The notes beneath the pieces were generated by a model. It did not search any database and was not told where the DNA came from. It saw nothing but the letters and a program-made list of their open reading frames with translations. Of a stretch of 57,631 nucleotides of DNA, positions 490-36,153 are shown in pieces. The position numbers were made by a program, and so were the translations under genes. Source of the DNA: Sulfurovum sp. (GTDB lineage Bacteria > Campylobacterota > Campylobacteria > Campylobacterales > Sulfurovaceae); the NCBI GenBank assembly GCA_027062365.1, contig JAMOTK010000006.1, positions 1-57,631 on the forward strand, given 5' to 3'. Each line of letters opens with the position of its first letter. The first letter of the stretch is position 1.

Positions 490-3400
490 TTATCTGCCAA
501 ATATCGTAATATCATCTGTACTATAATCTCTTTTGTAGACAATATCATAAGACTCTGACTCTTCATCAGCACTTATTACACTCTCCCATCTTGATGTATG
601 TTGATACTTTACACTTACTTTAGGGATAACATCATTGAGATAAATAAACATAATTTTATCTGTAAGTTTTTTACCTATTTCAACACTACCATCTGAACCA
701 ATCAGAAGATGGTCAAGTTTGATACCCATGTCAGAAAGAGCAGATTTTGCCATAGCCCCACCCATCATCTTCATCATATCATCAGCACTGTTTGTACCTG
801 CTCCTCCTTCTGAATCAAAAAGAATTACCGATAATATTTCTTCTCGACTCAAACTAGGTACAGAAGAAAACATAATATTTGGGGTAGCAGGTGTACCTGA
901 AACTGTAATCGTTATCATATAATTTAAAGATTTATATTTGATGCGAATATCAAGAATTGGTTTATTTGGATTACCTGTAAAATATATCTTACTTCTATCT
1001 AATACAAATTTTTTATCTTCAAAAGTATAAGACCCACCCTTATGTATCTTTACTTCCCCCAAAATCATAGGTTGGGAATATTCTAATTTGTGTATATCTA
1101 AATTGACACTTGCCTGAATATTGATAGGTCCTTTTTTATATTTAAGTGGCTTTTTTGTTGTTACATTGATAAGCATACTAAGGTTTTCCATAAATGGACT
1201 AGATTCTTCTTTTTTCTTATCTTGAACAATAATAATGTCATTATCAGAAGGATATGTTTTGCTACTTAAGTCATAATGAATATCTCCTCCAAGTAATACA
1301 ACCTTACCTTTTAGAGATGTTTTTCCTGTATCAAGTAGTGTATTGATATGTATAGCAGTATCAAGGTCTATTAGTTTATGGGCTAGATGAAATGTTTGTG
1401 CATCAGCAGAGATGTCTCCTTTTGCTGTTTCTAGGTTATAGTTACCTACTACTTTAAGTTGATCATTTAACCAAAGTTCTGAAATTTCAATATTATTTTC
1501 TTGCATCTTAATAAGAGAAGGTTTGGTAGAAAATATTTTCATTTCATTATAGGTTACAGCGTATGATTTGAGTTGTACTTTTGATTTGTCTGCACTGATT
1601 ACTAATTTTACATCATTTATGAGATGTTCTGTTTCACGGTCTGCATGATAGATGATTTTAGGTGAAGATAGAGAAAGATTTACCTGATTTAATTTGAGTA
1701 TATCTACAGATACATTCAATGCCCCTTCTACAGGTGGTACGTCTTCAATGGTATAAACATATTTTATAGATTTTATCAATGATTCGATAGAGTTCACATT
1801 AGCATTGAGGCTAATCTTCTCTTGGGCTAGACCTTTTATATCAGCATGAAGACCTGCGAGTGCTATCTTACCATCTACATATCCATTCTCTAACGTATAG
1901 TGAACCGTAGAAGAGAGTGCCTTAGATTTTAATATAAGCATCGCCTCTTTTTCCCCTAAATCAGCCTCTATTAGCAATGGACTTATGGCATTCCACTTCA
2001 CATTTTTATCAAAGTTTTGTAACAAAGAATCTTTAGTAATAGTCGAGATTATTTTGACTTTTAATGCTTTATCATAGCTAATATTGGCATCTATATTTGA
2101 GATATTAGAATGAATCTTTACTTTTACCGTCATATGGGTAATCTTGGCAAAATCCAAAGGTACATCCACCATCACATTTACTTTTGTAGTATTTAATTCA
2201 GCAGGAAGAACAAGCATTTTATCTAATTCAATCGCTTTTGTGGTTTCTAAATGAAAAATACCTTTTTTAAAGTCCGATGAGACAAAAGTCCCTTTGAGTC
2301 CATCCGAAGAGATATTGGTTTTGATACTACTCAAATCACCGTTATAATTAACTTTTAAATGATGTAAAGGCTTTAGAAATTTCTTATCAATACCTATTAT
2401 TTTTTTGGCTTTTATTTCTCCAAAATAACTCATATTCTTATCCATTAAAAATGTATTTGTAAGAGAGACATCTTTTGCATAAGGGGTACTTAGCATTACT
2501 TTGCTATCAGCAACTAGGCTATTGTCTGCTACCGTATACACAACATGGCTAAGAAGACTATCAATATCAAAATTAAATGCTTTACTTGTATTATCATCAC
2601 TGTTATTGGCTTCTGCTGTTTCTACAATGAGTATCTGTTTGGCTTTTGCTTTTATATCTAGGGCTACCTCTTCTTTTGTAGCATTTATATCAATAACTAT
2701 ATCCCCTATCGCCTCTCTTCGTAAAGGTAAGGTGTAGAGTGTAAAAAGTGTGTCATGAGGATGCACGACAACAGAACCTAAGATTTGATTGTCTTTTATT
2801 GTTCCATCGTAGCTAATATTAGAAAGGTTTGTTGTTCCATTTATATCAATAGAACCATTTTCTATCATGCCTTCTTGTGTATTAAATGTCATATCTTTTG
2901 CATATAATAGAAGACTCTTTATGGTAACAGGAGCATAAGATGTAGGTAGTATCTCTGTTTTAAAAGAATTAATTAGTATATACTTAGGGATTAAATGATT
3001 AATTTCTTCTTCATCTTGATTTTTATTTTTATTTTTTATTGTAGTCGTATTTGTCTCTGTCATAAAAAGAGATTGTACTGCACCTGTATTTAACGCTTCT
3101 ATATTGATATTTTCAAAGGTCAAGGTTTCTGCTTTAAGATTACCTAAAAGGGTTAAATGTGTCACATTAGAATCAAGAAAAAGTGAAAAACTATCAATGT
3201 TGATACTGTTCATATCATTTGAGGTAATTTTTTCTACATTAAGTAAAAGAGTATTGACGTTTACTTTCACTTCTTTGATATGTACAGATTGGTAATCTCG
3301 TGGCTTGATAGAAAGTAGAAAATTATCTAATTGTACTTCTTTAGGTATCAAAGGATTGAATGTTTCTTCTTTTTCATGCGTTGTAATTTTCTTCTTTTTC

Positions 3401-4065
3401 TCTTTTGTACTATTATTTTCCTTTGTCAAAATAATTTTCTCTAAAGCAACCGTATCTACATCATCAAGCAAAAGCGTATGTATCTCTAATTTGGCATTAT
3501 CTAGTGAGGCTTCAAGTGAAATTTTTGTTATATTTGTATCTATATTTAACCTAAGATACTCAATACCTATTGTATCACTACTATAGTATATATTTTCTAC
3601 ATTTAAAGAGGTTTTAGAGAGGTAAACACCTTGTTCTTCAAATGGATTAAGACTAATATCTACGTTGTCTACAAGTACAACAAGAGAAAAAGGCTCATTA
3701 GAGGTATTGTTCGTATCATTTGTAGGAAAAGAAGCAATCAATGCTTTAACCACATCCACATCTAATGCCTCTATACTAAGCTCATTAATCACTACTGTTT
3801 TATATAAAATTTTAGAAGGATTCCATGAAAATGTTATCTTTTTACTAAGTACTTTATCCTCAAATTTTAGATTATTTATCTTCACGCCTGTAAAGATATT
3901 ACCCGTAATAGTATCATACGATATTTTATAATCAGGTGCAAATTTATCGGCTACTTTTTTGATAACCCACGAAGAATTTGCTATAACAATGATTGTTATT
4001 ATCAGAACTAACAACACTATCAAAAGCCTATCAAAGATTTTATAAAAAATTTTTAAAAAATTCAA
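490..4065 (-). CDS. tamB: TamB-like translocation and assembly module protein
   Basis: A 1191-residue protein with one N-terminal membrane anchor (about residues 11-33) followed by a very long, beta-rich, low-cysteine region. The C-terminal roughly 350 residues have the DUF490/TamB signature, including GGDIHYD-, ILDIRIKYKSLNYMITITVSGTPATPNI- and a terminal beta-signal-like stretch ending IFGR. TamB proteins span the periplasm as a grooved beta-taco and work with an Omp85 partner in outer-membrane protein assembly or lipid transport. The gene overlaps the upstream Omp85 gene by four bases (ATGA), which supports coupled translation of a TamA/TamB pair. Length matches the family. Substrates cannot be read from sequence. 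Confidence 0.88.
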   Translation of the reverse strand: MNFLKIFYKIFDRLLIVLLVLIITIIVIANSSWVIKKVADKFAPDYKISYDTITGNIFTGVKINNLKFEDKVLSKKITFSWNPSKILYKTVVINELSIEALDVDVVKALIASFPTNDTNNTSNEPFSLVVLVDNVDISLNPFEEQGVYLSKTSLNVENIYYSSDTIGIEYLRLNIDTNITKISLEASLDNAKLEIHTLLLDDVDTVALEKIILTKENNSTKEKKKKITTHEKEETFNPLIPKEVQLDNFLLSIKPRDYQSVHIKEVKVNVNTLLLNVEKITSNDMNSINIDSFSLFLDSNVTHLTLLGNLKAETLTFENINIEALNTGAVQSLFMTETNTTTIKNKNKNQDEEEINHLIPKYILINSFKTEILPTSYAPVTIKSLLLYAKDMTFNTQEGMIENGSIDINGTTNLSNISYDGTIKDNQILGSVVVHPHDTLFTLYTLPLRREAIGDIVIDINATKEEVALDIKAKAKQILIVETAEANNSDDNTSKAFNFDIDSLLSHVVYTVADNSLVADSKVMLSTPYAKDVSLTNTFLMDKNMSYFGEIKAKKIIGIDKKFLKPLHHLKVNYNGDLSSIKTNISSDGLKGTFVSSDFKKGIFHLETTKAIELDKMLVLPAELNTTKVNVMVDVPLDFAKITHMTVKVKIHSNISNIDANISYDKALKVKIISTITKDSLLQNFDKNVKWNAISPLLIEADLGEKEAMLILKSKALSSTVHYTLENGYVDGKIALAGLHADIKGLAQEKISLNANVNSIESLIKSIKYVYTIEDVPPVEGALNVSVDILKLNQVNLSLSSPKIIYHADRETEHLINDVKLVISADKSKVQLKSYAVTYNEMKIFSTKPSLIKMQENNIEISELWLNDQLKVVGNYNLETAKGDISADAQTFHLAHKLIDLDTAIHINTLLDTGKTSLKGKVVLLGGDIHYDLSSKTYPSDNDIIIVQDKKKEESSPFMENLSMLINVTTKKPLKYKKGPINIQASVNLDIHKLEYSQPMILGEVKIHKGGSYTFEDKKFVLDRSKIYFTGNPNKPILDIRIKYKSLNYMITITVSGTPATPNIMFSSVPSLSREEILSVILFDSEGGAGTNSADDMMKMMGGAMAKSALSDMGIKLDHLLIGSDGSVEIGKKLTDKIMFIYLNDVIPKVSVKYQHTSRWESVISADEESESYDIVYKRDYSTDDITIFGR

Positions 4066-5837
4066 AATGATTGTCCTATTTGGAATGATATACCATACTG
4101 AGAAGAGTCCTGTACATTCATACCAATATCTAATTTGATAGGACCTATAGGAGAGATATACCGTACGCCTACACCTACTGAAGTAATAATTTCACCTGAA
4201 AAATCATACGCTTTTGTACTCAATAAAGTATTGTCTGAAAAGACTGCTCCATACACATCACCCCAGATAGGGTAATCAGCTTCCACAGTAATATTTGCCC
4301 AAGTTGATGCACCATATATGCTATCCTCTGTAGGAGATAAAATCACACCCATTTCTCTAAACCCATACGCACGGTTTGAAAACGAACCACCAGCAAAAAA
4401 ATATTTGGATTCAGGAAGACTGTTTTCTCTCTCTTCATCTACTATCCCTACTATACCTACTGTAGCTAGTGTAAGATTAGCAAATGTATGAATAAACCTA
4501 GCTTCTAATAATGCTTTATAGTATACACTAGATTCCTCATCAGAAAGCCCCGTTTCAAGATACGCAGAGAGATAATATCCATATTTAGGATTGAGTTTTG
4601 AATCTCTTGCATCATAACTAAAATCTATATAGGGGTAGGTAAGTAAAAATGTTCCTTCATTGACAGCTTGTGTCAATTCTTCTTCTACAGGAATATTATT
4701 TAAAGCAGTAATTGTTATGTTTTCAAGGGCAAACCCTACTCGTAATTTTACTTTTTTTGTCTTATGGTCTAAAAATACTCTTAAAAATTCTTTTTCTTCT
4801 TGAAATCCATCATATTCTAAGTTTGAATATCCACCTTCACCCCCTACCCCTACATAATAATCAAAAATATTAATAAAAACTGGTTTATAAAAACTAAAAA
4901 TAGCCAATTGTTCTAACTCTGACCAAGCCAATTGAAGTTTTAATTCTAATGCATTACCAAAAAGATTATATCTAGTGATTGAAGAGTGTACACGTGGACC
5001 AACATAGCTATCATAGCCTACACCTACTTCAAAATGGTAGGGATTTTTCTTTTCTTGGACGATAATATCAACAGGAATAACATTATAAATTTTTCTATCT
5101 ACTCCAATGATTACAGAATCAAAAGAATGCAATCCATAGAGTGCCTTAGAAGTGTCTTTTATATGTTCGATATTAAATCGTTCACCCTCTTCAGCCCGTA
5201 CTTGTGACTTCACAACTTCTTCATTCATTGTAGTTAGCCCCTTTACTGTCACTTTTCCAAAGGTACATACCCCACCTTTTTTTAGAATATAACGAAGATT
5301 AACACTATGTGTATCCAAATCAACATAGGCTTTAGTATCAAATTCAGAAGAACAGTATCCATCTTGTAGTAAGGTAGTGGTGATTTTATTTTTTATCGAT
5401 ATAAACTTTTTAGCTAGAAAAATTTCATTTTTTTCAAATGATACAAATGATGAAATATTATAATCACTAGAGATATTAATATCTTTTATTCTTATCGGTT
5501 GATTTTCTATGATATTTACCTGAACCGTTGTATTGCTCTCTTCAATAGTAAAGTTCGCATCATAAAAACCTTCAGAATCATAAAAAGACCTTAGTGAAGC
5601 ATGTAAAGTAGGGAGTAATTTATCTTTAATATAACTAGTATCATCCTTCCAAAATTCAAAAATACTTTTTTGCTCAATACCTAAAGCATTATAGATTTTA
5701 GACTCATCAAATATTTTAGCAGAAATTTCAATGATATGTGTAGGAAGAAGTATCTCTTTTTGTTCATCTTCTCCAAAGATTGATGCCCAAAGGAAAGTAG
5801 AACCTAGTAAAACTAAAATAAATAGTATTTTTTTCAT
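4062..5837 (-). CDS. tamA: TamA/BamA-family outer-membrane protein (Omp85)
   Basis: A 591-residue Omp85 protein. A signal peptide (MKKILFILVLLGSTFLWAS) is followed by POTRA-like repeats over about residues 30-265, then a 16-strand-type barrel. The surface-antigen hallmark is present: FFAGGSFSNRAYGFREMG- (about residues 475-492, with the R-x-Y-G-F motif), and the protein ends in the aromatic beta-signal -QIGQSF. It would sit in the outer membrane and partner the TamB encoded just downstream. The size and three POTRA-like units fit TamA better than BamA, which is larger with five. The AT-rich stretch upstream toward tRNA-Ser probably carries the promoter. Confidence 0.85.
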   Translation of the reverse strand: MKKILFILVLLGSTFLWASIFGEDEQKEILLPTHIIEISAKIFDESKIYNALGIEQKSIFEFWKDDTSYIKDKLLPTLHASLRSFYDSEGFYDANFTIEESNTTVQVNIIENQPIRIKDINISSDYNISSFVSFEKNEIFLAKKFISIKNKITTTLLQDGYCSSEFDTKAYVDLDTHSVNLRYILKKGGVCTFGKVTVKGLTTMNEEVVKSQVRAEEGERFNIEHIKDTSKALYGLHSFDSVIIGVDRKIYNVIPVDIIVQEKKNPYHFEVGVGYDSYVGPRVHSSITRYNLFGNALELKLQLAWSELEQLAIFSFYKPVFINIFDYYVGVGGEGGYSNLEYDGFQEEKEFLRVFLDHKTKKVKLRVGFALENITITALNNIPVEEELTQAVNEGTFLLTYPYIDFSYDARDSKLNPKYGYYLSAYLETGLSDEESSVYYKALLEARFIHTFANLTLATVGIVGIVDEERENSLPESKYFFAGGSFSNRAYGFREMGVILSPTEDSIYGASTWANITVEADYPIWGDVYGAVFSDNTLLSTKAYDFSGEIITSVGVGVRYISPIGPIKLDIGMNVQDSSQYGISFQIGQSF

Positions 5838-25916: not shown

Positions 25917-27507
25917 TTTCTAAACCACCTACACGGCAGTCAACTGGTGCTATCATCGGGCAGAGGACAATCTTCATTTCTAAACCACCTACACGGTAGT
26001 CAACACGAAGTTAAAAAGAGGTATTTTGAGTTAAATTTTCTAAACCACCTACACGGTAGTCAACAACTACTGTTCTTCATACTCTAGCTAAGGGTATTTC
26101 TAAACCACCTACACGGTAGTCAACTGCATGGTGCCTATTATTTAACCACCTGGTATTTTCTAAACCACCTACACGGTAGTCAACTGCCACTTCAGCGATA
26201 CAACACTTTCCCACTTTTTCTAAACCACCTACACGGTAGTCAACATACAAAAATGCTCAAAGACTGCCAAGAATTTTTTCTAAACCACCTACACGGTAGT
26301 CAACGTTAAAGTGTCTATGAATAGTGAGCCAATTAATTTCTAAACCACCTACACGGTAGTCAACGCTATTTCCAAATTCTTCTATCGCTCTTTAATTTTC
26401 TAAACCACCTACACGGTAGTCAACATATTCGCATCTTTTGCATTGTTTTCTCATAATTTCTAAACCACCTACACGGTAGTCAACATAGAGAGTGATGAAA
26501 TACGCTATACCTTGGCATTTCTAAACCACCTACACGGTAGTCAACATGATGATAGTATTATTGCTGATGTTTATGATTTTCTAAACCACCTACACGGTAG
26601 TCAACAGTATATGAAAGTGTGGTACGCCGTCCTTGTGGTTTCTAAACCACCTACACGGTAGTCAACGTAGATACGTTTGTAAGTACTTCACTCTCAATTT
26701 TCTAAACCACCTACACGGTAGTCAACCTGTGATGTTCTCTAATACAGCCTTATACTTTTTTCTAAACCACCTACACGGTAGTCAACGGTAGTATGATGAA
26801 AAAAATTTACTACGAAGTTTTCTAAACCACCTACACGGTAGTCAACCAATACTAATAATAGCAATAAAACAAACAAAATTTCTAAACCACCTACACGGTA
26901 GTCAACAATGCAAAAGACGAAAGCCAAAGAGAGGTTAATTTCTAAACCACCTACACGGTAGTCAACATTAATCCCCATTTTCATGTTTTTTTGTAGCCTT
27001 TTCTAAACCACCTACACGGTAGTCAACCAAACAATGTCTACAAAGCTAAAGCCATACTATTTCTAAACCACCTACACGGTAGTCAACGAAATACAGTTTT
27101 AGTAGATGATGAAGATTTCTTTCTAAACCACCTACACGGTAGTCAACCTCTGGCAATAAAGCCATCAAAACCCCCAATATTTCTAAACCACCTACACGGT
27201 AGTCAACTGCGTCAGGATAGATGTTAATTATCCTTTGTGTTTCTAAACCACCTACACGGTAGTCAACCGTTGGAACTTCTACTGTTGCCACTTGCGTCAT
27301 TTCTAAACCACCTACACGGTAGTCAACATAATGCTTTCAGTGGTATACATTTGCATAGTTTTCTAAACCACCTACACGGTAGTCAACAATAGTTTGATAG
27401 ATAGAGGTTTACTACGTGATTTCTAAACCACCTACACGGTAGTCAACCTGGTGGTGGAGTTGTTTCATTATTCTCTGGTTTTCTAAACCACCTACACGGT
27501 AGTCAAC
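25917..27507 (-). CRISPR. Type I-F CRISPR array, 27 repeats and 26 spacers
   Basis: Twenty-seven 28-bp repeats are spaced by 32-bp spacers, with three spacers of 33. In transcript sense (minus strand) the repeat begins GTTGACTACC and ends GGTTTAGAAA, close to known I-F repeats, and forms the I-F stem ACUACC/GGUGGU. The copy at 25917 has one substitution (CAGTCAAC for TAGTCAAC on the plus strand), as expected at the old, leader-distal end. The leader is therefore at the 27507 side, next to cas6f. Several spacers resemble the inovirus prophage in this window (see findings). The ORFs that run through the array are artefacts of the regular repeat. Confidence 0.99.
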
Positions 27508-27656: not shown

Positions 27657-28259
27657 TTAAAACATGGGTAGGGTTGAGGTGTTGCTTAGTCCGTAGGTGT
27701 TGAAATTTCCTTTGTGTTCTTTTGGGCTTTCTTTTTTGACGATAAATATTTTCATTGGATGACCATTGGATAGGCTTTTGATGTTGAGGAAAGGTAGTTT
27801 GTTTTTTTCTTTTAACTTCTTGTACTTTTCTTCGGTGTTTGCATAAAGGCTTAGGGCTTCTTCTTCTGAAATATTGTTGCGTTTGGCGTGGCGTTTGGCT
27901 AGTCTTCGTATTTCTGCGTTGGATTTGAATTGTTTTCTTCCAAAAGAGGCAAAGGTTTTTATCTCTTTGGGGACTTCTTGGATTTTGGATATTTCTATAT
28001 AGTCCAATAGTCTAGCCAACCAATGATTGATATTTAATTTTTCTAATTCTTCTTTTGTTTCTGCAAAAATTCTTAGCACAGACCCAAGAGGAAAAGCCTC
28101 CTTTTGATACTGTGGGAATGCTAGACCTATAGAAAGCTTATTGTCTGCGTCTCTTCTCTCAACCAAAGCTAAGTGTATTTGAAGATACACTTTTTGCCAA
28201 ATGAAGCCAAGCGTTATCTCTGTGTCTGTGATAAGTTTTATGTCTGTGTAATAGTGCAT
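27657..28259 (-). CDS. cas6f: Cas6f (Csy4) crRNA endoribonuclease
   Basis: A 200-residue type I-F processing nuclease. It cuts each pre-crRNA repeat at the base of its hairpin and stays bound to the 3' end. The N-terminus MHYYTDIKLI and the catalytic histidine at residue 29 (VYLQIHLALV) align with the Pseudomonas Csy4 arrangement (His29). An arginine-rich helix, FKSNAEIRRLAKRHAKRN, should bind the repeat stem, and the C-terminus YGLSNTSTLPMF matches the family end. It is the last gene of the csy operon, six bases after csy3, and abuts the array leader. Confidence 0.96.
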   Translation of the reverse strand: MHYYTDIKLITDTEITLGFIWQKVYLQIHLALVERRDADNKLSIGLAFPQYQKEAFPLGSVLRIFAETKEELEKLNINHWLARLLDYIEISKIQEVPKEIKTFASFGRKQFKSNAEIRRLAKRHAKRNNISEEEALSLYANTEEKYKKLKEKNKLPFLNIKSLSNGHPMKIFIVKKESPKEHKGNFNTYGLSNTSTLPMF

Positions 28260-28265
28260 AATGGA

Positions 28266-29285
28266 CTACTTATCACTCTGACCAAAGACACCACCACGCA
28301 CAAGTACTGCCATTACATAGTGTTCTTCTTCTTTACTCTCTAGCGTTGTTCCTGTGGCAAAGTTATCAAAAAGCGTATAAAAGTCTTGCTTGTCTTTTGG
28401 GGTTCTAAAGGCTTTTCCCATATTGGTAACTGCCCCATAAGGCTCTATGGCGATTGCCCCATTTCCTGCTTCTGTAGCAAATTCTTTATACCAAGTATCA
28501 ATACTTCGCAAGGCATTGCCTATCTTTTGGGAGTGCATAGAGGCGATGCCATCTACTTCATAAAGAACTTTACCTTTTTTGCCTTGACCTTTGTCCAATA
28601 CAAGCTCTTCACTAGGATAAACCTCTTGGGCTTTGCCTACTTTGGCATAAGTCGTGACTTCTAACATCAAAAAATCGTCATCAGAGGCTAGGGCATCGGC
28701 TATTTTTTTTCCTAAGTCTATGACTTCTTTATTTTGACTTTGCATAGAACGCACAGAAAAGCTTTTGGCATCAAATGTCCAACTCTTCTGTGAGATTAAA
28801 TCTTTGATTTTCACTTCTATAGACTCTGTACCGACTCTGTTTCTCCACAAAAATCGTCCATTGGCCAAATTGAGAGCATAACGCAATCCAAGTTCTTTAA
28901 ATCCTTCTTTTTCTATATATCCTGTAACTGCTTCTTCATAAGTTCTTAAAAACTCTGTATTGTTACACGCAGAGGGGTCTTTGATGCCACCTAAGACTTT
29001 GAGCGTAAAGTTCAAAACCAAAGTATCTTGTTCGGGTGCTAAGGCACAAGAATCTACCGTTTGTAAGTTGGCTTTTTCTACTTCTGCATTGAGTTTGGCA
29101 GGGTCATTTTTAATCGCAGGTTTTAGACGATTTGCAATCGTACCTCTCACAGATTTTTCTACCAATTTCAACGCTGTTTTATCCGTTTTGTTCTCCCAAG
29201 TTGTGCCGTACATCATGCCATCTGAAGGTACTAATTTTTTCTCAAATGCTAAAACCGATGCTATTTTACTTTTTACTTTTGCCAT
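28266..29285 (-). CDS. csy3: Csy3 (Cas7f) backbone protein
   Basis: The type I-F Cas7-family protein, six copies of which normally coat the spacer part of the crRNA and set the six-nucleotide periodicity with every sixth guide base flipped out. I start at the ATG at 29285 (MAKVKSKIASVLAFEKKL, 339 residues) because AAAGGA lies seven bases upstream. The upstream ATG at 29324 would overlap csy2 and adds a non-conserved NKIITINSKEN stretch. Typical motifs include LVPSDGMMYGTTWE and FLWRNRVGTE. Located between csy2 and cas6f. Confidence 0.95.
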   Translation of the reverse strand: MAKVKSKIASVLAFEKKLVPSDGMMYGTTWENKTDKTALKLVEKSVRGTIANRLKPAIKNDPAKLNAEVEKANLQTVDSCALAPEQDTLVLNFTLKVLGGIKDPSACNNTEFLRTYEEAVTGYIEKEGFKELGLRYALNLANGRFLWRNRVGTESIEVKIKDLISQKSWTFDAKSFSVRSMQSQNKEVIDLGKKIADALASDDDFLMLEVTTYAKVGKAQEVYPSEELVLDKGQGKKGKVLYEVDGIASMHSQKIGNALRSIDTWYKEFATEAGNGAIAIEPYGAVTNMGKAFRTPKDKQDFYTLFDNFATGTTLESKEEEHYVMAVLVRGGVFGQSDK

Positions 29286-29301: not shown

Positions 29302-30198
29302 TTAATTGTTATTATTTTGTTCACAGAGATAGAGACCGTGTTCTTTATCTACTGAATATTGCCATAAAATCTCATCTAAAGACTCAATTTTGTAGGGCAT
29401 TTTAAACTCTCCTAATGTCACAAGAGCTTCAGCGAAACAGTGAAGTTTCTCTGCGTCTCGTTGGTTCTTGGCTTTTCCTAGTTCAGAAATACCTTGAAAG
29501 CCTACGGCTATAGGTACTATCCATCCTGATGCTTTTCTCTTTTTTGTCCATAGTGTTTTTTCGTTTTTTTGTTCACAACTGTTATGAATAACAAGATAAT
29601 CCAAAAGTGCATCTATGCCATCTAGTCCTCTCTCCATAGCCTCTATCATCAAATCTTTTCTCTCTACAAGTACATAGCCTGGCATAAGTTTACGACGCAC
29701 ACGAGCCAACTGCTCATCATCTCTACTTTTGACTTTCAAAGTCTCTATGTTTTTAAAGTTGAGTATATCTCCACCTGCTAGTTTCATTCTGGAGTGTAGA
29801 TGATGGGCTACTCTAGCTTCAAATTTTTCTTTATCCTCTCTACTTATCCCCTCATATTCAATAAGCAACGAAACATCAAGATGTATTCTAGCCTCTTCTA
29901 TAAAAGCAGGTCGTTTACCCTCTTTATCTAAGGGATTACTTGTACCAATAATAGAATGAACATAATCGCCTACGCCTTTATGGGTCTGTAAATTGGCATG
30001 ATGGCTCACAACAGCTATAGCATTAAATCTCAAATCTTTAAATCCATCGGCGTTTAATTTGCGTTGAAGTGCATGAGTAGCACCAAGCCAAGCCGTCATC
30101 GCAGGAAATCCGATAGTAAAAGGGCTAGACAGAGCATTGGCATTTTGTACTTTGATATGAGAAAGAAGTAGTATATTTTTGATTTTTGATTTTTTCAT
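29302..30198 (-). CDS. csy2: Csy2 (Cas5f)
   Basis: A 298-residue Cas5-family protein that caps the 5' handle of the crRNA with Csy1. It begins with the usual ILLLSHIKVQNANALSSPFTIGFPAMTAWLGA, the Csy2 N-terminal signature, and has the basic segment LARVRRKLMPGYVLVERKDLM in the middle. The gene overlaps csy1 by four bases (ATGA). Length is typical of the family. The C-terminal part (YSVDKEHGLYLCEQNNNN) extends to just before the csy3 start. Confidence 0.95.
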   Translation of the reverse strand: MKKSKIKNILLLSHIKVQNANALSSPFTIGFPAMTAWLGATHALQRKLNADGFKDLRFNAIAVVSHHANLQTHKGVGDYVHSIIGTSNPLDKEGKRPAFIEEARIHLDVSLLIEYEGISREDKEKFEARVAHHLHSRMKLAGGDILNFKNIETLKVKSRDDEQLARVRRKLMPGYVLVERKDLMIEAMERGLDGIDALLDYLVIHNSCEQKNEKTLWTKKRKASGWIVPIAVGFQGISELGKAKNQRDAEKLHCFAEALVTLGEFKMPYKIESLDEILWQYSVDKEHGLYLCEQNNNN

Positions 30199-31472
30199 CT
30201 TAACGCCTCTCGCTGTTGTTCAACAGTATCTTTAATATTTTCAAACTCCCATTTTCCATTAATTTCTATGGCATTTTTATTTAAAACTTTTTTGTAACTT
30301 TGCAATATCCACGAGCTTATATCTTTTATGATTTCATCAAGCCAAAGCTCTTCTTCTCTTTCTTCTTCTTTTGATGAAAGTAACCAAATCTTTTGATAAC
30401 TTTTGAGTGTAGAGGTTTTTTCGTAATAGAGTGCATTACTCACAGCTCTTACAGCCCACATCTGCTCTATGATTTTATCTATTAGACTTTCATAATGATA
30501 GTTCTTTGCATTACGAATATCTATATTTGTATAGTCTTTTATTTGATAAATAGCATGTAAATCCATAAAAATATATTTGTATTTCCAAGGGTTCATAGAC
30601 TCTCTAAAAAAATCAGACTTTGGAAAAGGGGTATCTCTTTTTTCTATATTTGGAGGCATGGTATTGAGTAACTGTGCTTTACCTCCATTTTGAGAATTGA
30701 GTACAGATATATTTTGAGGCTTAGTCCCTCCATAGCCTATGGTAGTGAGATTATATATCTCAGCAAATCCATCTTCAGAAAATTGACTATTTTTTCTTGC
30801 TTCTCTTAAGGCTTTAAGATGCTTTTTCCCCTCTTCACCAGCTCCAAAACGGATAGTATCAAGCCTTTTTCGTAAATGGAATATCATAGCAGAGTTACTT
30901 AGAATTGAGAGTAGATGATAATCCTCATCTACAGGGAAATAGACCTGTTTTATCTTAGAACTTGTCAAAGACTCACTTGAACTCTCTATCATCTTCAAAA
31001 ACTCTTCTTTGAGTACATCATAACTTTTTGATTTAATGTTCAAAAGAGCTTTTGCCAAAGGAGTATCTTTTTGTATATGTTCTATAAGCACTATTCCATC
31101 AGGCATCATAAGATTTAAAAACTTATGCACATCCAACGCGGCTGCATTCCCCAAAGCATCTTTTTGTACCTCTACATTTCCACTGCGTAATAATCCATCA
31201 ACCCTATACTCTTTTGAGGCGATAATAGATGTCACATAGCCATTTTTATTTTTCCTAGCACTAGGATGTGAAAAGGTGCAAGGGTGTGTAGCCATAGATA
31301 TTTGTCCTGCTCTTTTGGAGGCATTGGGTAACCAAACTTCCAAAGAAAATTCCATGGCACTCTTTTCATAGAGTTCTAAAACCTCATCTTCTTCCATAGA
31401 AGCTTTGAGCTTTTTTTTCAACCAAGCTTCTTTTCGTTCATCAAAAAACTTAGTAATCACTTCATTTATCAT
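30195..31472 (-). CDS. csy1: Csy1 (Cas8f) large subunit
   Basis: A 425-residue Cas8f protein that, with Csy2, recognises the CC PAM and starts DNA unwinding. Recognisable segments are LPNASKRAGQISMATHPCTFSHPSARKN (about residues 48-75), VDGLLRSGNVEVQKDALGNAAALDVHKFL, and the conserved TIGYGGTKPQNISVLNSQNGGKAQLLNTMPP. A good ribosome binding site (AAGAAAGGAAAAATT) precedes the ATG. It heads the csy1-csy2-csy3-cas6f operon. The upstream 446 bases hold its promoter, a mini-CRISPR and a toxin-antitoxin candidate. Confidence 0.96.
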   Translation of the reverse strand: MINEVITKFFDERKEAWLKKKLKASMEEDEVLELYEKSAMEFSLEVWLPNASKRAGQISMATHPCTFSHPSARKNKNGYVTSIIASKEYRVDGLLRSGNVEVQKDALGNAAALDVHKFLNLMMPDGIVLIEHIQKDTPLAKALLNIKSKSYDVLKEEFLKMIESSSESLTSSKIKQVYFPVDEDYHLLSILSNSAMIFHLRKRLDTIRFGAGEEGKKHLKALREARKNSQFSEDGFAEIYNLTTIGYGGTKPQNISVLNSQNGGKAQLLNTMPPNIEKRDTPFPKSDFFRESMNPWKYKYIFMDLHAIYQIKDYTNIDIRNAKNYHYESLIDKIIEQMWAVRAVSNALYYEKTSTLKSYQKIWLLSSKEEEREEELWLDEIIKDISSWILQSYKKVLNKNAIEINGKWEFENIKDTVEQQREALR

Positions 31473-31507
31473 AATTTTTCCTTTCTTGAATTTATTTGCT
31501 ATACTTA

Positions 31508-31536
31508 TTCAGTATCTTATTACTGAAATGATAGCA
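31508..31536 (-). promoter_or_regulatory. csy operon promoter core with an operator-like palindrome
   Basis: On the minus strand TGCTATCAT (31536-31528) is an extended -10 element about 55 bases before the csy1 ATG. It is followed by a perfect 7-bp dyad, TTCAGTA-6-TACTGAA (31508-31527), at the probable transcription start. An alternative -10, TATAAT, is at 31566-31561. The dyad could be a repressor site. Neither start point is proven. Confidence 0.5.
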
Positions 31537-31557
31537 TAGATATTCTTAAATTATCAA

Positions 31558-31586
31558 AAAATTATAAATAATAAATAGTAGTATGG
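31558..31586 (-). promoter_or_regulatory. Probable self-target of the mini-CRISPR guide in the csy1 promoter
   Basis: On the minus strand a CC dinucleotide at 31586-31585, the type I-F PAM, is followed by ATACTACTATTTATTAT and then TTATAA. This matches the pseudo-spacer at 31622-31648 at 20 of the first 23 positions: 1-5, 7, 9-17 and 19-23. The site covers one candidate -10 and lies at about -37 to -63 of the other promoter, so bound Csy complex would block csy transcription. Confidence 0.72.
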
Positions 31587-31593
31587 TTTAACT

Positions 31594-31676
31594 ATATAAA
31601 TCTACCTACACGGTAGTAAACGCTTTTATAGATAATAAATCGAAGTATTTTCTAAGCTACCTATACGGTAGTTTAA
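31594..31676 (-). CRISPR. Degenerate two-repeat mini-CRISPR (CreR-like guide RNA gene)
   Basis: Two decayed copies of the array repeat flank a 27-nt pseudo-spacer (31622-31648). The first copy (31676-31649) matches 22 of 28 bases and keeps the hairpin CTACC/GGTAG plus the 5'-handle CTTAGAAA, while its unused 5' end has decayed. The second (31621-31594) matches 21 of 28 and keeps the 5' part with the hairpin, while its unused handle has decayed. Both changed G to A at repeat position 19, turning a U-G stem pair into U-A. This is the pattern expected if Cas6f still excises one guide from it. TATAAA at 31696-31691 or TATAAT at 31681-31676 may drive it. Confidence 0.78.
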
Positions 31677-31705
31677 TTATAAATAATTGCTTTATAATTA
31701 GTTTA

Positions 31706-31714
31706 TGATATAAT
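31706..31714 (+). promoter_or_regulatory. Extended -10 promoter for the antisense RNA
   Basis: TGATATAAT is an exact TGnTATAAT extended -10. TTGCTT at 31687-31692, 16 bases upstream, is a weak -35. The expected start at about 31721 coincides with the base of the closing stem of the structured RNA. Confidence 0.7.
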
Positions 31715-31720
31715 TTTATT

Positions 31721-31857
31721 AGTTGGGGCAGGTAGAGAGGTGTAACTCTCTACAAGCTTTTAATACGCTTTTGTTGCTAGAATTAACAGCAAAAGTATAA
31801 CAATTATAATGTTGTGCAACATTGTTATATCCTTTTTCAAGGGCTGACCCTGTCCCA
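31721..31857 (+). ncRNA. Structured antisense RNA, Sib-like antitoxin candidate
   Basis: Starting seven bases after TGnTATAAT, the plus-strand RNA can fold with a closing stem GGGGCAGG (31725-31732) with CCTGTCCC (31849-31856). Three hairpins lie inside: GTAGAGAG/CTCTCTAC, CTTTTGTT/AGCAAAAG and TATAAC plus AATGTT/AACATT plus GTTATA. Two pairs are G-U only if the plus strand is the RNA (they would be A-C on the other strand), which supports this sense. It covers the whole 20-codon toxin-like ORF and its ribosome binding site on the minus strand. Size, structure and overlap resemble Sib antitoxins. No clear U-tract terminator is seen, so the 3' end is approximate. Confidence 0.65.
31760..31822 (-). 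CDS. Ibs-like 20-residue hydrophobic toxin candidate
   Basis: The ORF ATG-TTG-CAC... encodes M-L-H-N followed by the hydrophobic core IIIVILLLLIL and the tail ATKAY. Length, uninterrupted Ile/Leu/Val core and C-terminal tyrosine resemble the Ibs toxins of Escherichia coli, which insert in the inner membrane and depolarise it. AAGGA lies seven bases before the ATG, a well-placed ribosome binding site. The ORF is co-directional with, and 97 bases downstream of, cas2-3, so it can be read from the cas1-cas2-3 message or from an AT-rich -10 (31878-31871). It is fully overlapped by a structured opposite-strand RNA. Toxicity is inferred. Confidence 0.6.
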   Translation of the reverse strand: MLHNIIIVILLLLILATKAY

Positions 31858-31870
31858 CCTTCTCCTTCAC

Positions 31871-31878
31871 AATATATA
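31871..31878 (-). promoter_or_regulatory. Possible promoter of the toxin-like ORF
   Basis: On the minus strand TGTATATATT offers a -10-like TATATA/TATATT preceded by TG. A start near 31864 would give a leader with GGAGAAGGTGGGACAGG complementary to the antisense RNA. The AT-rich context makes this a weak prediction. Confidence 0.35.
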
Positions 31879-31918
31879 CAAATGATAATCGCCCAACTAG
31901 AACTAGAAGTATATCTAA

Positions 31919-34900
31919 TTAGACTTTTACCAATCCAAATATATCACTATACTCATACTTTTCACTTTTTTCCCAAATAAAACTTAACTCTCCATATCGT
32001 AGAGAAATCTCTTTTTTACTTTTCTCTTTTAGCATTGCCTTTTCTTTAATACTCGTATTATAATCTCTAAGAAACCAACTATTATGCTCCAAACGCTTAT
32101 CCTCTTCAATTCGTGTTATCCTAAGTCCAAATTCACGATTGATAGGATTGTCAAATATATCTACAATTATCTTAGCAAATTTATCATATTGTGTAAAAAA
32201 ATACGCCTCACTCTTCTCATCATAAGTCAAAAAAACTTTTATAGAGGGTGAACTCTTTCTAAAGGGATGGAAATAATAGGGGTGAGCTGTAAGAAACCAA
32301 CTCTCGTCCAAGTATCCTTGTAGCGTATCAGCTCCCTCATCATCATAAGAGGTCAAATACTCTTCTGTTTGATAGTGTTCCAAGTCACTTAGAGACTCTT
32401 TTTCTCTTAATTTAAGAGGTTTTTGTATCCTTTCTGTGGCATCTAATCGTTTTCCAAGGGCTTTTGTATCAATAAGATGAGAGAGTTTATGTGTTTTGAG
32501 TGTTAGACCCTCTTCATACCCAGGCTTTTGAAACGAGCGTTTAGTATCATCATTGTATTGAAAAGATTTTAGATTATATTCCATCAGTCCAATATTTGGC
32601 TCATTTATAGTCTGCCCCCTATGCCTAGATACGCGTCCTGCAAGTTGTATGATAGAACGATAAGAAGATGGTTCTATTATCGCCCAGTCAAAATCATGGT
32701 CTCGTCCTACCTCTTCTACAGGTGTGGCTACGACTATAAAAAGCATATTATCTGCTTTTGCATTATCAAGATGAGAGCGAATAATCGTATTCTTAAAAGC
32801 TTCTGCTTCTTCACCCTCTTTCTCTTTTCTTTTTAATACACTATCCAAATGTCTCTCTTGTTCATGCCGTAGAAGTAGCACTTGATTGGAATGGTATGCC
32901 ATCACTCTCACTTCTATTTCATCAGGATACTCTTCAGCCATGAGATATTTTGCCAAGGCAACACAAGGCTTTATATTTGCGACTCGAAGCACTCCAAAAG
33001 AGACAGAAATATCTGTTTTTATATCTTTTGTATTGTGTTGATAATGTTTGTCTATCATCGCATTTTTGATTTTTTCAAAATAGCTCTCTTCTTCTCCTCC
33101 TATCTCATCGTGGCACTCTATTATTTCTAATTTTCGTTTAGCGACTCCTTTGGCTAAATTCTTTACCCGTTTATCTACAAAGGCTTTATGTTTGCTATTA
33201 TACGCTTCTATCGTCGTGATAGATTCTGCCTTTGTCCCAAACTCATCTATCCATGCACAGATTATAGGGCTTTTGGCTTCACGCGTTTTGGCAAAGAGTT
33301 CCCAACCTTTTTGATAGGCATTAAAATATCCCTCTGCCAAATCAGGAGGTATGGTAGCAGATGAAATCATCACTTTTCTGCCCAACAACCCTGCAAGATG
33401 TACCAGTCTTGCAATAGCCACAAGGTCAGAACCAGAGAAATCATCTATCTCATCTATGACCAAATCTGAACTCATCAAACGAAGAGAGGGCAAGATATAT
33501 TTTCCTCCTCTTTTGCTAGTTACAGCACCCATTAAGTGGTCTATAGTACATACAAGCACAGGAGCATACAAAAATTGTCTATCTCTCTCTCTTCTTAAAA
33601 TAGTATTTAAGCCCTCTTCAGGAATAGCACAATCAAAATCTATATACTCATCTAAAAGGCTTTCTATAGATTCCGAACCACTATCTACAGACTCTTGTGC
33701 TTCTGCTATTTTAGTCTCTTTATGTAATTCCAATACAGCTTTAGAACCGATAAGTACAGCCAACTCATCATCTTCTAAGCGTATTTTATCTCTATACTCA
33801 TCACCTGTTTGTAGTGTCAAAGTCCGAAGACCCAAAGCCAATATATATCTTAGGCTTTTATTATCATTAGATACGGCTCTCATTATCTTTGCATTAGCAA
33901 AAGTTTTACCACATCCCGTACTAGCCATATTGACAGCAAAAAACCCTTCTTTTTCTTTGCTATCAAGTTGAGGTTTTATCATCTGTACAGCCTTGTCTTG
34001 CCAAGAGTAGGCTTTGGGACTGGCTTTTTTTAATGCTCTATTATCCACCACTATCGGTGGCTCTTTCTCAAAAGCAGGAAGTAGATGCACTGTTTTTAAA
34101 GCACTTGCCATTACACCAAATAGATGTTCATCTAGTTTCTGTTTCATCTGCTTTGTTTTGGAGTCTGTATTGGCAAAAAGTCCGATATTATCACGCCAAG
34201 AGTTATCATTATCTTGTGAAGAATAATGGTGGTCACCGAGCATCAGACAAAGCCTAGAGTGATGAAGAACCACTCTATAGCTACCATCATCTATAGACTC
34301 ACTTAGTAAATCAGAGTTTATTATCATCCTACTAGACCATTTTTTGACACTCTGTAACCATTTACTAGCATTATTTAAAAGTCCATTAGGAAACTCAAAA
34401 CATCTCTCCACAAGTGCTTGATACTCCTTTTCTTCTCTTCTATTTTCATATCCCCAAGATTGCCTTATCTTTTTGAGTATATCTTCTATACTATATGCCT
34501 CTATTCCTTGCCATTTATCTTCAATCTCAGCTAAAGAAGTAGAATAACTAGGCAGACGATGATGAGAAACTATAAGCCAAAGTATGAGTTTCGCAGAAGA
34601 TGGTAAATCTTTTAATACACTCTCTTTCTTACGCAACTCTTTGAGTGATAAGAGTAGAGATTTTTCATCTATCTCACCTCTACTCAAGCGTTCTAGCCAA
34701 GTTGTAGGATTTTGTGAGATAAAAGCAGAAAGGAGCATACAAGATATCCACTCATGACGGATAGGGTCGCCTTTGATTTTGCTATTTGGTTTGAGTTTTG
34801 ATTGAAAAAGAGCCGTAGCTTTGCCCCAATCATGAAACAAAGCAGAAAGAGCAGTCAGAGACTTAATCAGCTCCAAATATTTCCAATCACTCTCTTTATA

Positions 34901-35200
34901 CTTATCCAAAATGGTCTTTTTTGTTCTATTGACAGGCACAATCCCCTCATCATTAAACTTATCTCTATTCCCCACTATCCATACAAGTTCAGTTCTGCTA
35001 CGGCTTCGTATCCAATGGCAACTTATAGCAGAACTTTTTGATGCTGTTTGTCTAAGTAGTTTTTTTACAGCCTTTAACCCCTCCATAGTCATAATCGTCT
35101 GCCAAGTATTAGAGCCTATTCTATCGGCAAAAGAGTCCAATACTCTGCGTGTCTTTTTGAGTGCGTTTTTCTCACACTCGGAGATGAAAGTAACTATCAT
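31919..35200 (-). CDS. cas3: Cas2-3 fusion nuclease-helicase (type I-F)
   Basis: A 1093-residue protein with Cas2 fused to the N-terminus of Cas3, the hallmark of type I-F. Residues about 1-95 are the Cas2 part (MIVTFISECEKNALKKTRRV). The HD nuclease motif is ALFHDWGKATALFQ near residue 117. The helicase has Walker A MASTGCGKTFANAK, a DEAD-box variant VIDEIDDFSGSDLV, motif III SSATIP and motif VI QLAGRVSRHRGQ. It shreds target DNA and, with Cas1, acquires spacers. The start overlaps the cas1 stop (ATGA). All catalytic motifs are intact, so the system looks functional. Confidence 0.97.
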   Translation of the reverse strand: MIVTFISECEKNALKKTRRVLDSFADRIGSNTWQTIMTMEGLKAVKKLLRQTASKSSAISCHWIRSRSRTELVWIVGNRDKFNDEGIVPVNRTKKTILDKYKESDWKYLELIKSLTALSALFHDWGKATALFQSKLKPNSKIKGDPIRHEWISCMLLSAFISQNPTTWLERLSRGEIDEKSLLLSLKELRKKESVLKDLPSSAKLILWLIVSHHRLPSYSTSLAEIEDKWQGIEAYSIEDILKKIRQSWGYENRREEKEYQALVERCFEFPNGLLNNASKWLQSVKKWSSRMIINSDLLSESIDDGSYRVVLHHSRLCLMLGDHHYSSQDNDNSWRDNIGLFANTDSKTKQMKQKLDEHLFGVMASALKTVHLLPAFEKEPPIVVDNRALKKASPKAYSWQDKAVQMIKPQLDSKEKEGFFAVNMASTGCGKTFANAKIMRAVSNDNKSLRYILALGLRTLTLQTGDEYRDKIRLEDDELAVLIGSKAVLELHKETKIAEAQESVDSGSESIESLLDEYIDFDCAIPEEGLNTILRRERDRQFLYAPVLVCTIDHLMGAVTSKRGGKYILPSLRLMSSDLVIDEIDDFSGSDLVAIARLVHLAGLLGRKVMISSATIPPDLAEGYFNAYQKGWELFAKTREAKSPIICAWIDEFGTKAESITTIEAYNSKHKAFVDKRVKNLAKGVAKRKLEIIECHDEIGGEEESYFEKIKNAMIDKHYQHNTKDIKTDISVSFGVLRVANIKPCVALAKYLMAEEYPDEIEVRVMAYHSNQVLLLRHEQERHLDSVLKRKEKEGEEAEAFKNTIIRSHLDNAKADNMLFIVVATPVEEVGRDHDFDWAIIEPSSYRSIIQLAGRVSRHRGQTINEPNIGLMEYNLKSFQYNDDTKRSFQKPGYEEGLTLKTHKLSHLIDTKALGKRLDATERIQKPLKLREKESLSDLEHYQTEEYLTSYDDEGADTLQGYLDESWFLTAHPYYFHPFRKSSPSIKVFLTYDEKSEAYFFTQYDKFAKIIVDIFDNPINREFGLRITRIEEDKRLEHNSWFLRDYNTSIKEKAMLKEKSKKEISLRYGELSFIWEKSEKYEYSDIFGLVKV

Positions 35201-36153
35201 AAGAGTTTGACTTTCCCATAATACATAGAAGCCTTTTTCACCTCAGCAAACATAAAATCCAAGGCTTTATGTTCTATAAATTTTTGTAAAACATAATATC
35301 TAAACTCTTTTTCATTCATGCCTTCTTTGGCACAGATAAAAGCCGAAGGTAAGACAATGGCATCTTTGATGAGGTCTGCTACATCAAAAACCAATGCCCC
35401 TCGTCGTGTCTTGCCATGCATCAAAGCAAAACCATGAGAGATACCCAAAACCCATAGTGTCGTAGCTCCTAATCCATAAGCCAAATAATTGCCATGATTT
35501 AAAAAGCTATTCGTCTCATCAGGATTATCATGGTCTCGTTTAAAGTTTTTCAGGTTTGTCTTTTGAGCAGAATAGGCATAAAGTTTTTTTGTTAGCTCTG
35601 CTTCAAGGGTGAGTAGTTTATTTACATTATACGCACCTTCTATATCTAACAATGCTTTTTCTAATAGGCGTTTGAGTCTATCATCATCTACATCAAATCC
35701 TGCAAATTTGAGTTCTTTGTCTTTTGCCCATATTTTTTGTATAAAGCCTATTCGTGCCATTTGAATTCTTTTAGCACTTGCAAGTCTTTTGTCCTCTTCA
35801 AACCAAAAATTCATCCACCCTTGAATATAATCCGTCGGACGGTATTCACTTTGAGGAGTAAGCCATTCTATCTCTGTTCCCATAATTAGAGGCGTAGCAC
35901 CACTCCCCGAAAAGCCAACAAGCACACCTGCACTTGCCAACATACGCATAGCAGCTTGTGTGATAGATGTACCTGTACCTAATAATAAACAAGTGGTATT
36001 GGCAATAGGGATATTCCAATATTGATATTCTTCTTTTGCTTCGGTGAGATAAAGCACTCTTCCATCTTTTTGCATCACACGACACTTTTCAAGATAATAG
36101 ATATTGGCTCGTTTGGAGTGAAGTATGGCTTTGAGGTCTGTGAGTTGTTCCAT
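35197..36153 (-). CDS. cas1: Cas1 integrase (type I-F)
   Basis: A 318-residue I-F Cas1, the integrase that inserts new spacers. Recognisable parts: LKAILHSKRANIYYLEKCRV at the start, LLGTGTSITQAAMRMLASAGVLVGFSGSGATPL, NHGNYLAYGLGATTLWVLGISHGFALMHGKTRRGALVFDVADLIKDAIVLPSAF with the catalytic Glu-free/His/Asp region, and a helical C-terminus. The glutamate of the active site should be in ELTKKLYAYSAQ or nearby. It is first in the cas1 and cas2-3 unit. The upstream gap to ribBA is only 55 bases, so its promoter must be compact. Confidence 0.96.
   Translation of the reverse strand: MEQLTDLKAILHSKRANIYYLEKCRVMQKDGRVLYLTEAKEEYQYWNIPIANTTCLLLGTGTSITQAAMRMLASAGVLVGFSGSGATPLIMGTEIEWLTPQSEYRPTDYIQGWMNFWFEEDKRLASAKRIQMARIGFIQKIWAKDKELKFAGFDVDDDRLKRLLEKALLDIEGAYNVNKLLTLEAELTKKLYAYSAQKTNLKNFKRDHDNPDETNSFLNHGNYLAYGLGATTLWVLGISHGFALMHGKTRRGALVFDVADLIKDAIVLPSAFICAKEGMNEKEFRYYVLQKFIEHKALDFMFAEVKKASMYYGKVKLL

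Follow-up and report, generated by a model that had tools for sequence, protein, structure and literature searches.

The stretch of DNA analysed here (the window) comprises 57,631 nt of Sulfurovum sp. (Campylobacterota; GCA_027062365.1, contig JAMOTK010000006.1, positions 1-57,631) and carries a complete type I-F CRISPR-Cas locus on its minus strand. The cas effector genes appear complete as judged by their Pfam matches: cas1 (35197..36153; Cas_Cas1, 9.3e-11) and cas2/3 (31919..35200; Cas3_I-F_Cas2, 3.8e-38, and Cas3_HD) are followed by csy1 (cas8f; 30195..31472; Cas_Csy1, 9.8e-104), csy2 (cas5f; 29302..30198; Cas_Csy2, 3.5e-107), csy3 (cas7f; 28266..29282; Cas_Csy3, 3.8e-146) and csy4 (cas6f; 27657..28259; Cas_Csy4, 3.4e-54), which encodes the expected processing nuclease. 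Repeat analysis placed the array, also on the minus strand, at 25917..27507, with 27 repeats of 28 nt and spacers of 32 nt. The gap of 446 bp between cas2/3 and csy1 contains a mini-CRISPR together with its target, and csy1, which heads csy1-csy2-csy3-csy4, is the gene that we propose to be regulated by it.

All parts of the mini-CRISPR lie on the minus strand. The first degenerate repeat, psi-R1 (TTAAACTACCGTATAGGTAGCTTAGAAA; 31649..31676), is identical to the array repeat GTTGACTACCGTGTAGGTGGTTTAGAAA at 22 of 28 positions and consists of the hairpin CTACC-GTATA-GGTAG and an intact CTTAGAAA handle, the future 5' handle of the putative guide. Sequence comparison delimited a pseudo-spacer of 27 nt, as against 32 in the array spacers (ATACTTCGATTTATTATCTATAAAAGC; 31622..31648), and then a second degenerate repeat, psi-R2 (31594..31621; 21/28), which has the hairpin but carries ATTTATAT in place of the handle. 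A CC PAM on the protospacer strand (31585..31586) adjoins the target (31562..31584), which agrees with the pseudo-spacer at 20 of 23 positions and differs from it at 6, 8 and 18; pairing is lost from position 24, and a 32-nt protospacer would extend to 31553. Our recount gave the same repeat identities, spacer length and matched positions as the original prediction, including its mismatches at 24-27, and confirmed that the PAM it had named adjoins the target. A search with the exact repeat-core pattern found only the two psi-repeats outside the array; with up to two mismatches one more site appeared on another contig, at a stringency at which a reversed control pattern matched too.

Both psi-repeats have an A at repeat position 19, which had been read as a G-to-A change that strengthens both stems. 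The A is indeed present, but most relatives' array repeats have A there, so that it is probably the older state and not a new stabilising change. The psi-R2 hairpin with ATTTATAT (31594-31621) scored as intrinsic-terminator-like in a terminator scan, and the corresponding tail in locus L040 reads TTTTATTTTTTATTTTT; psi-R2 may double as terminator of the guide.

The match between the pseudo-spacer and the csy1 promoter region is not due to chance. None of 100,000 shuffled pseudo-spacers reached 20/23 beside any CC on either strand of the gap, and the best of 27 array-derived sequences put through the same test reached 15/23. A genome-wide pattern search (2.3 Mb, up to three mismatches) returned nothing beyond the target and the pseudo-spacer. 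A guide aimed at cas1 or another gene was ruled out, since the same search gave no further match.

Beyond the target we predicted a csy1 promoter, TTGATA-18-TATCAT with an extended -10 (TGC), at 31528..31557 on the minus strand; it agrees with the consensus at 10 of 12 positions, although AT-rich DNA will contain some sites of this kind by chance. At its distal end the protospacer overlaps the -35 box of this predicted promoter. A consensus-like hexamer (TATAAT; 31676..31681, minus strand), 4 nt before the psi-R1 stem, is a candidate -10 box of the mini-CRISPR itself, and a -10-like hexamer lies upstream of psi-R1 in 9/9 of the loci described below (null mean 5.7, shuffle P ~0.01). Elsewhere the target starts ~6-7 nt past a -10-like hexamer (L033, L034) or covers a -35-like hexamer (L035, L037), all these calls being consensus matches only in an AT-rich region.

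Csy1 searches yielded additional I-F loci, or pieces of them, in Campylobacterota and on plasmids. The mini-CRISPR is found in nine Campylobacterota loci (the window, L009, L010, L014, L033, L034, L035, L037 and L040), always on the csy strand, and all nine Campylobacterota I-F loci with such a cas3-csy1 gap carry psi-R1, spacer and psi-R2. In seven other Campylobacterota loci (L012, L031, L032, L036, L038, L039 and L054), and likewise in the Vibrio plasmid L048, cas3 and csy1 are adjacent and thus leave no room for a mini-CRISPR; a repeat scan of six of these loci found no repeats at the cas3-csy1 junction. Inspection by eye of the Methylomonas plasmid L050 found no repeat pair before csy1, and a scan of viral contigs found no relatives. 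The Methylobacter plasmid L051 has a mini-CRISPR in the opposite orientation in its cas3-csy1 gap (2791-3001), whose guide ATAGTATTTGT... matches a CC-flanked site before csy1 over the first 11 positions. On the Csy1 tree, presence of the mini-CRISPR changes at least six times, and the promoter match holds wherever it is present.

Across loci the stem of 5 bp and the loop of 5 nt are maintained in both psi-repeats, and the stems covary through compensatory changes. The TTAGAAA handle is found in psi-R1 of most loci and in psi-R2 of none, the same asymmetry of hairpin plus handle against hairpin that had been pointed out in the window. In L010, L033, L034 and L035 the starts of psi-R1 and psi-R2 are 48 bp apart, which corresponds to a 20-nt spacer; this is shorter than 32 by two Cas7 steps of 6 and equals the length of the Acinetobacter guide (PMC10097628). 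A repeat-like hairpin directly follows the target, as it follows the spacer, in L009, L010, L033 and L034; the sequences would fit a guide that arose when the promoter end and a repeat were duplicated in tandem.

We then examined whether pseudo-spacer and promoter covary among related I-F loci, a check that the original prediction had proposed. In each of the nine loci the best CC-flanked match in its own gap covers 14-18 of the first 18 positions, and the guides differ. Own pairs averaged 15.9/18 and cross pairs 6.9/18, and 0 of 200,000 permutations equalled the true pairing, figures to be read with the nine loci being related and not fully independent: the guides of L033 and L034 are similar and match each other's target at 15-16/18. 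L010 and L040 are close relatives with unrelated guides, each of which matches its own site.

Summed over the nine loci, pairing is nearly full at positions 1-17 bar 6 and 12, falls at 18 and has reached background by 21, where it stays. Positions 2-5, 7, 9, 11, 13, 15 and 16 match in 9/9 loci, while 6 matches in 6/9, 12 in 5/9 and 18 in 2/9. The bases at 6, 12 and 18 are those flipped out by type I complexes. Congruently with the suggestion that mismatches 6, 18 and 24 of the window lie at bases that type I guides leave unpaired, 14 of the 19 mismatches in positions 1-18 fall at these multiples of six (binomial P 6e-8); the excess persists when position 18 is excluded (7/12, P 1.4e-4) and survives the omission of any one locus (P <=0.0034). 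Mutation of the Acinetobacter I-F CreA defined 2-5, 7-9 and 13-17 as essential positions (PMC10097628). Taking that list, mismatches occupy 3 of 108 cells at CreA-essential positions and 21 of 72 at the other eight of the first 20 (Fisher P 4e-7). One of those three is the mismatch at 8 of the window, and because it falls on a CreA-essential position, repression in the window could be weaker; the window alone among the nine loci pairs at all of 19-23, and we infer that this extra pairing may compensate. Part of the likeness between guide and target could come from recent duplication and not from selection, but the mismatch pattern argues otherwise.

A third repeat-like hairpin, newly seen in this analysis, lies in the csy1 5' leader (ATACT-GAATA-AGTAT; 31501..31515, minus strand) and, like the repeat, has a stem of 5 bp and a loop of 5 nt. 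All loci in which the mini-CRISPR immediately precedes csy1 have such a hairpin (7/7). Against shuffles it gave P 0.0003-0.05 in six loci and P 0.73 in L034, where the hairpin lies partly outside the scored stretch; the combined Fisher P of 4e-8 is only indicative because the score was devised after the hairpins were seen. In the stems 97% of cells pair, and three pairs are changed on both sides, values biased in favour of pairing since the hairpins were partly picked by it. The final base of the stem, which in the repeat is the cleavage-site base, is U and not G in 6/7 loci, as if the leader hairpin were kept for binding and not for cutting. That the csy transcript might be doubly controlled, by a guide-loaded Csy complex at the promoter and by free Csy4 (Cas6f) on this repeat-derived hairpin, is a tentative idea that we regard as rather doubtful.

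Two loci, L009 and L010, depart from this arrangement. Their target is situated just downstream of a TATAAT and upstream of psi-R1, and the guide would therefore control its own unit. Both have an ORF between the mini-CRISPR and csy1 (L009 ~4040-4460; L010 5426-5839, 137 aa). The L010 ORF matches PBECR3, a Barnase/EndoU/RelE-like nuclease family, with E 6.7e-7 and 29.7 bits against a cut-off of 30, and the L009 ORF is similar to it. In these loci the guide appears to control a PBECR3 nuclease-csy unit, an arrangement newly seen in this analysis, and the ORF looks like a CRISPR-controlled toxin. About 90 bp between the PBECR3-like gene and csy1 (ACGGGTGTTTGC...CGTCCGAAACGAACTCCGATGG; L010 5840-5960, L009 4460-4590) are strongly conserved and gave no Rfam match.

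Within the gap of the window, positions 31702-31899 are a copy of a dispersed repeat of ~200 bp with the ends ..AGTTGGGC / GCCCCAACTA..; it has 12 matching places in the genome including the window copy, the others being 76-82% identical. By eye, three copies form a cluster on contig C16, close to ORFs for a reverse transcriptase and a DUF1566-like lectin, and two on C49 lie near similar lectin ORFs; the repeat is possibly linked to a diversity-generating retroelement or cassette array. The 200 bp of additional sequence lying between cas2/3 and psi-R1 are this genomic repeat and probably do not belong to the regulatory device. A toxin gene in the gap was ruled out, as it holds tiny ORFs only, most of them inside the dispersed repeat.

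We consider it highly probable that the mini-CRISPR is a CreR-type autorepressor, in which a guide-loaded Csy complex would sit on the csy promoter without recruiting Cas2/3. We infer that in Sulfurovum sp. the mini-CRISPR would be transcribed in the csy direction and its transcript cleaved by Csy4 (Cas6f). The resulting crRNA-like guide would consist of a CUUAGAAA handle, a short spacer and a hairpin at its 3' end, and would load into the same Csy complex as the array crRNAs. The loaded complex would find the CC-flanked site in the csy1 promoter, pair over ~17-23 nt and block RNA polymerase, leaving incomplete the R-loop that recruits Cas2/3. Type I-F complexes need a complete R-loop for that recruitment, and because pairing ends at ~17-23 nt none should form. 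When free Csy complex is plentiful, transcription of csy1-4 would fall by negative feedback; when the complex is scarce, taken up by crRNAs of the array or disabled by an anti-CRISPR, it would rise. The original idea of a CreR-like guide aimed at its own csy promoter is thus supported by the covariation in nine loci, the type I mismatch pattern and the position of the protospacer over the predicted csy1 -35 box.

The same parts could serve a CreTA-like addiction module, in which a small toxin RNA or gene would be what the guide holds down, any effect on csy1 being incidental. In Acinetobacter I-F loci the toxin RNA creT is repressed by a mini-CRISPR that likewise lies between cas3 and csy1 (PMC10097628), and the ORF between mini-CRISPR and csy1 in L009 and L010, with its PBECR3 match just below the Pfam cut-off in L010 (E 6.7e-7), would suit such a module. 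In the window, however, we found no toxin RNA or divergent unit at the target and no divergent promoter there on the other strand, the csy1 leader alone lying downstream, and in 7/9 loci no gene is inserted and the target is located at the csy1 promoter; we judge this reading improbable.

The degenerate repeats, the shortened spacer and the absence of the mini-CRISPR from many relatives are also what a decayed remnant of an old array or self-targeting spacer, now functionless, would leave. Such a remnant does not agree with a guide and promoter that stay matched while both change, with mismatches at positions that type I complexes ignore, nor with psi-repeat stems held by compensatory changes, and we hold it to be very improbable. 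That psi-R2 scores as a terminator-like hairpin would suit two inverted-repeat elements that serve not as a guide but as operators in the DNA or to terminate transcription downstream of cas2/3; this leaves the spacer-promoter match, the CC PAM and the 6-nt mismatch period unexplained, and we give it scarcely any credence. Autorepression by a CreR-type guide remains our preferred reading.

Self-regulating guides are already known (CreR in types I-B, I-E and V-A, CreA in I-F), and the novelty is modest. The CreR mini-CRISPRs are reportedly attributable to Liu et al. 2023. Shmakov et al. 2023 (NAR 51:8150) are said to have described I-F1 mini-arrays with conserved stand-alone repeats and spacers partly matching cas8 promoters, one of which was reportedly tested as a regulatory guide; they are apparently the same kind of element in the same kind of position. 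Among the papers searched here, none dealt with I-F autoregulation in Campylobacterota. According to two reviews (PMC13131331, PMC12737573), CreR mini-CRISPRs of types I-B, I-E and V-A have limited complementarity to cas promoters, and an autorepression has been proposed for them that crRNAs and Acr proteins would relieve. The element of the window resembles them in its two degenerate CRISPR repeats on either side of a short pseudo-spacer, near cas genes, and in a limited complementarity (20/23) to the predicted csy1 promoter that lies beside a CC and is unique in the genome; it differs in its type I-F context in Campylobacterota, its 5-bp Cas6f-type hairpins, its CC PAM and the third hairpin in the csy1 leader. 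For the Acinetobacter I-F CreA a 20-nt spacer with 17 pairs and positions 6, 11 and 18 unpaired is described (PMC10097628). CreTA shares the cas3-csy1 gap, the psi-R1/psi-R2 design and the CC PAM, but its target controls the divergent toxin RNA creT, whereas that of the window lies at the csy1 promoter and is co-directional. CrePA is a CRISPR-repressed protein toxin with a KilA-N domain (PMC12737573). L009 and L010 are similar to it in having a protein-coding gene (with the PBECR3 nuclease match in L010) in an apparently guide-controlled unit, but with another toxin family, and the window, with no gene between target and csy1, lacks such an arrangement; PBECR3 is not named in the passages on CreTA or CrePA that were consulted.

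These results would extend RNA-guided CRISPR-Cas self-regulation to type I-F of Campylobacterota. In the nine natural guide-promoter pairs, the clear 6-nt period of the mismatches reveals the base pairs that selection keeps when a type I complex has to bind without cutting. The patchy gain and loss, and the differing guides in sister loci, point to a rapid turnover of such regulators. Our reading predicts that Campylobacterota with the element would raise their Csy levels when phages inhibit the complex.
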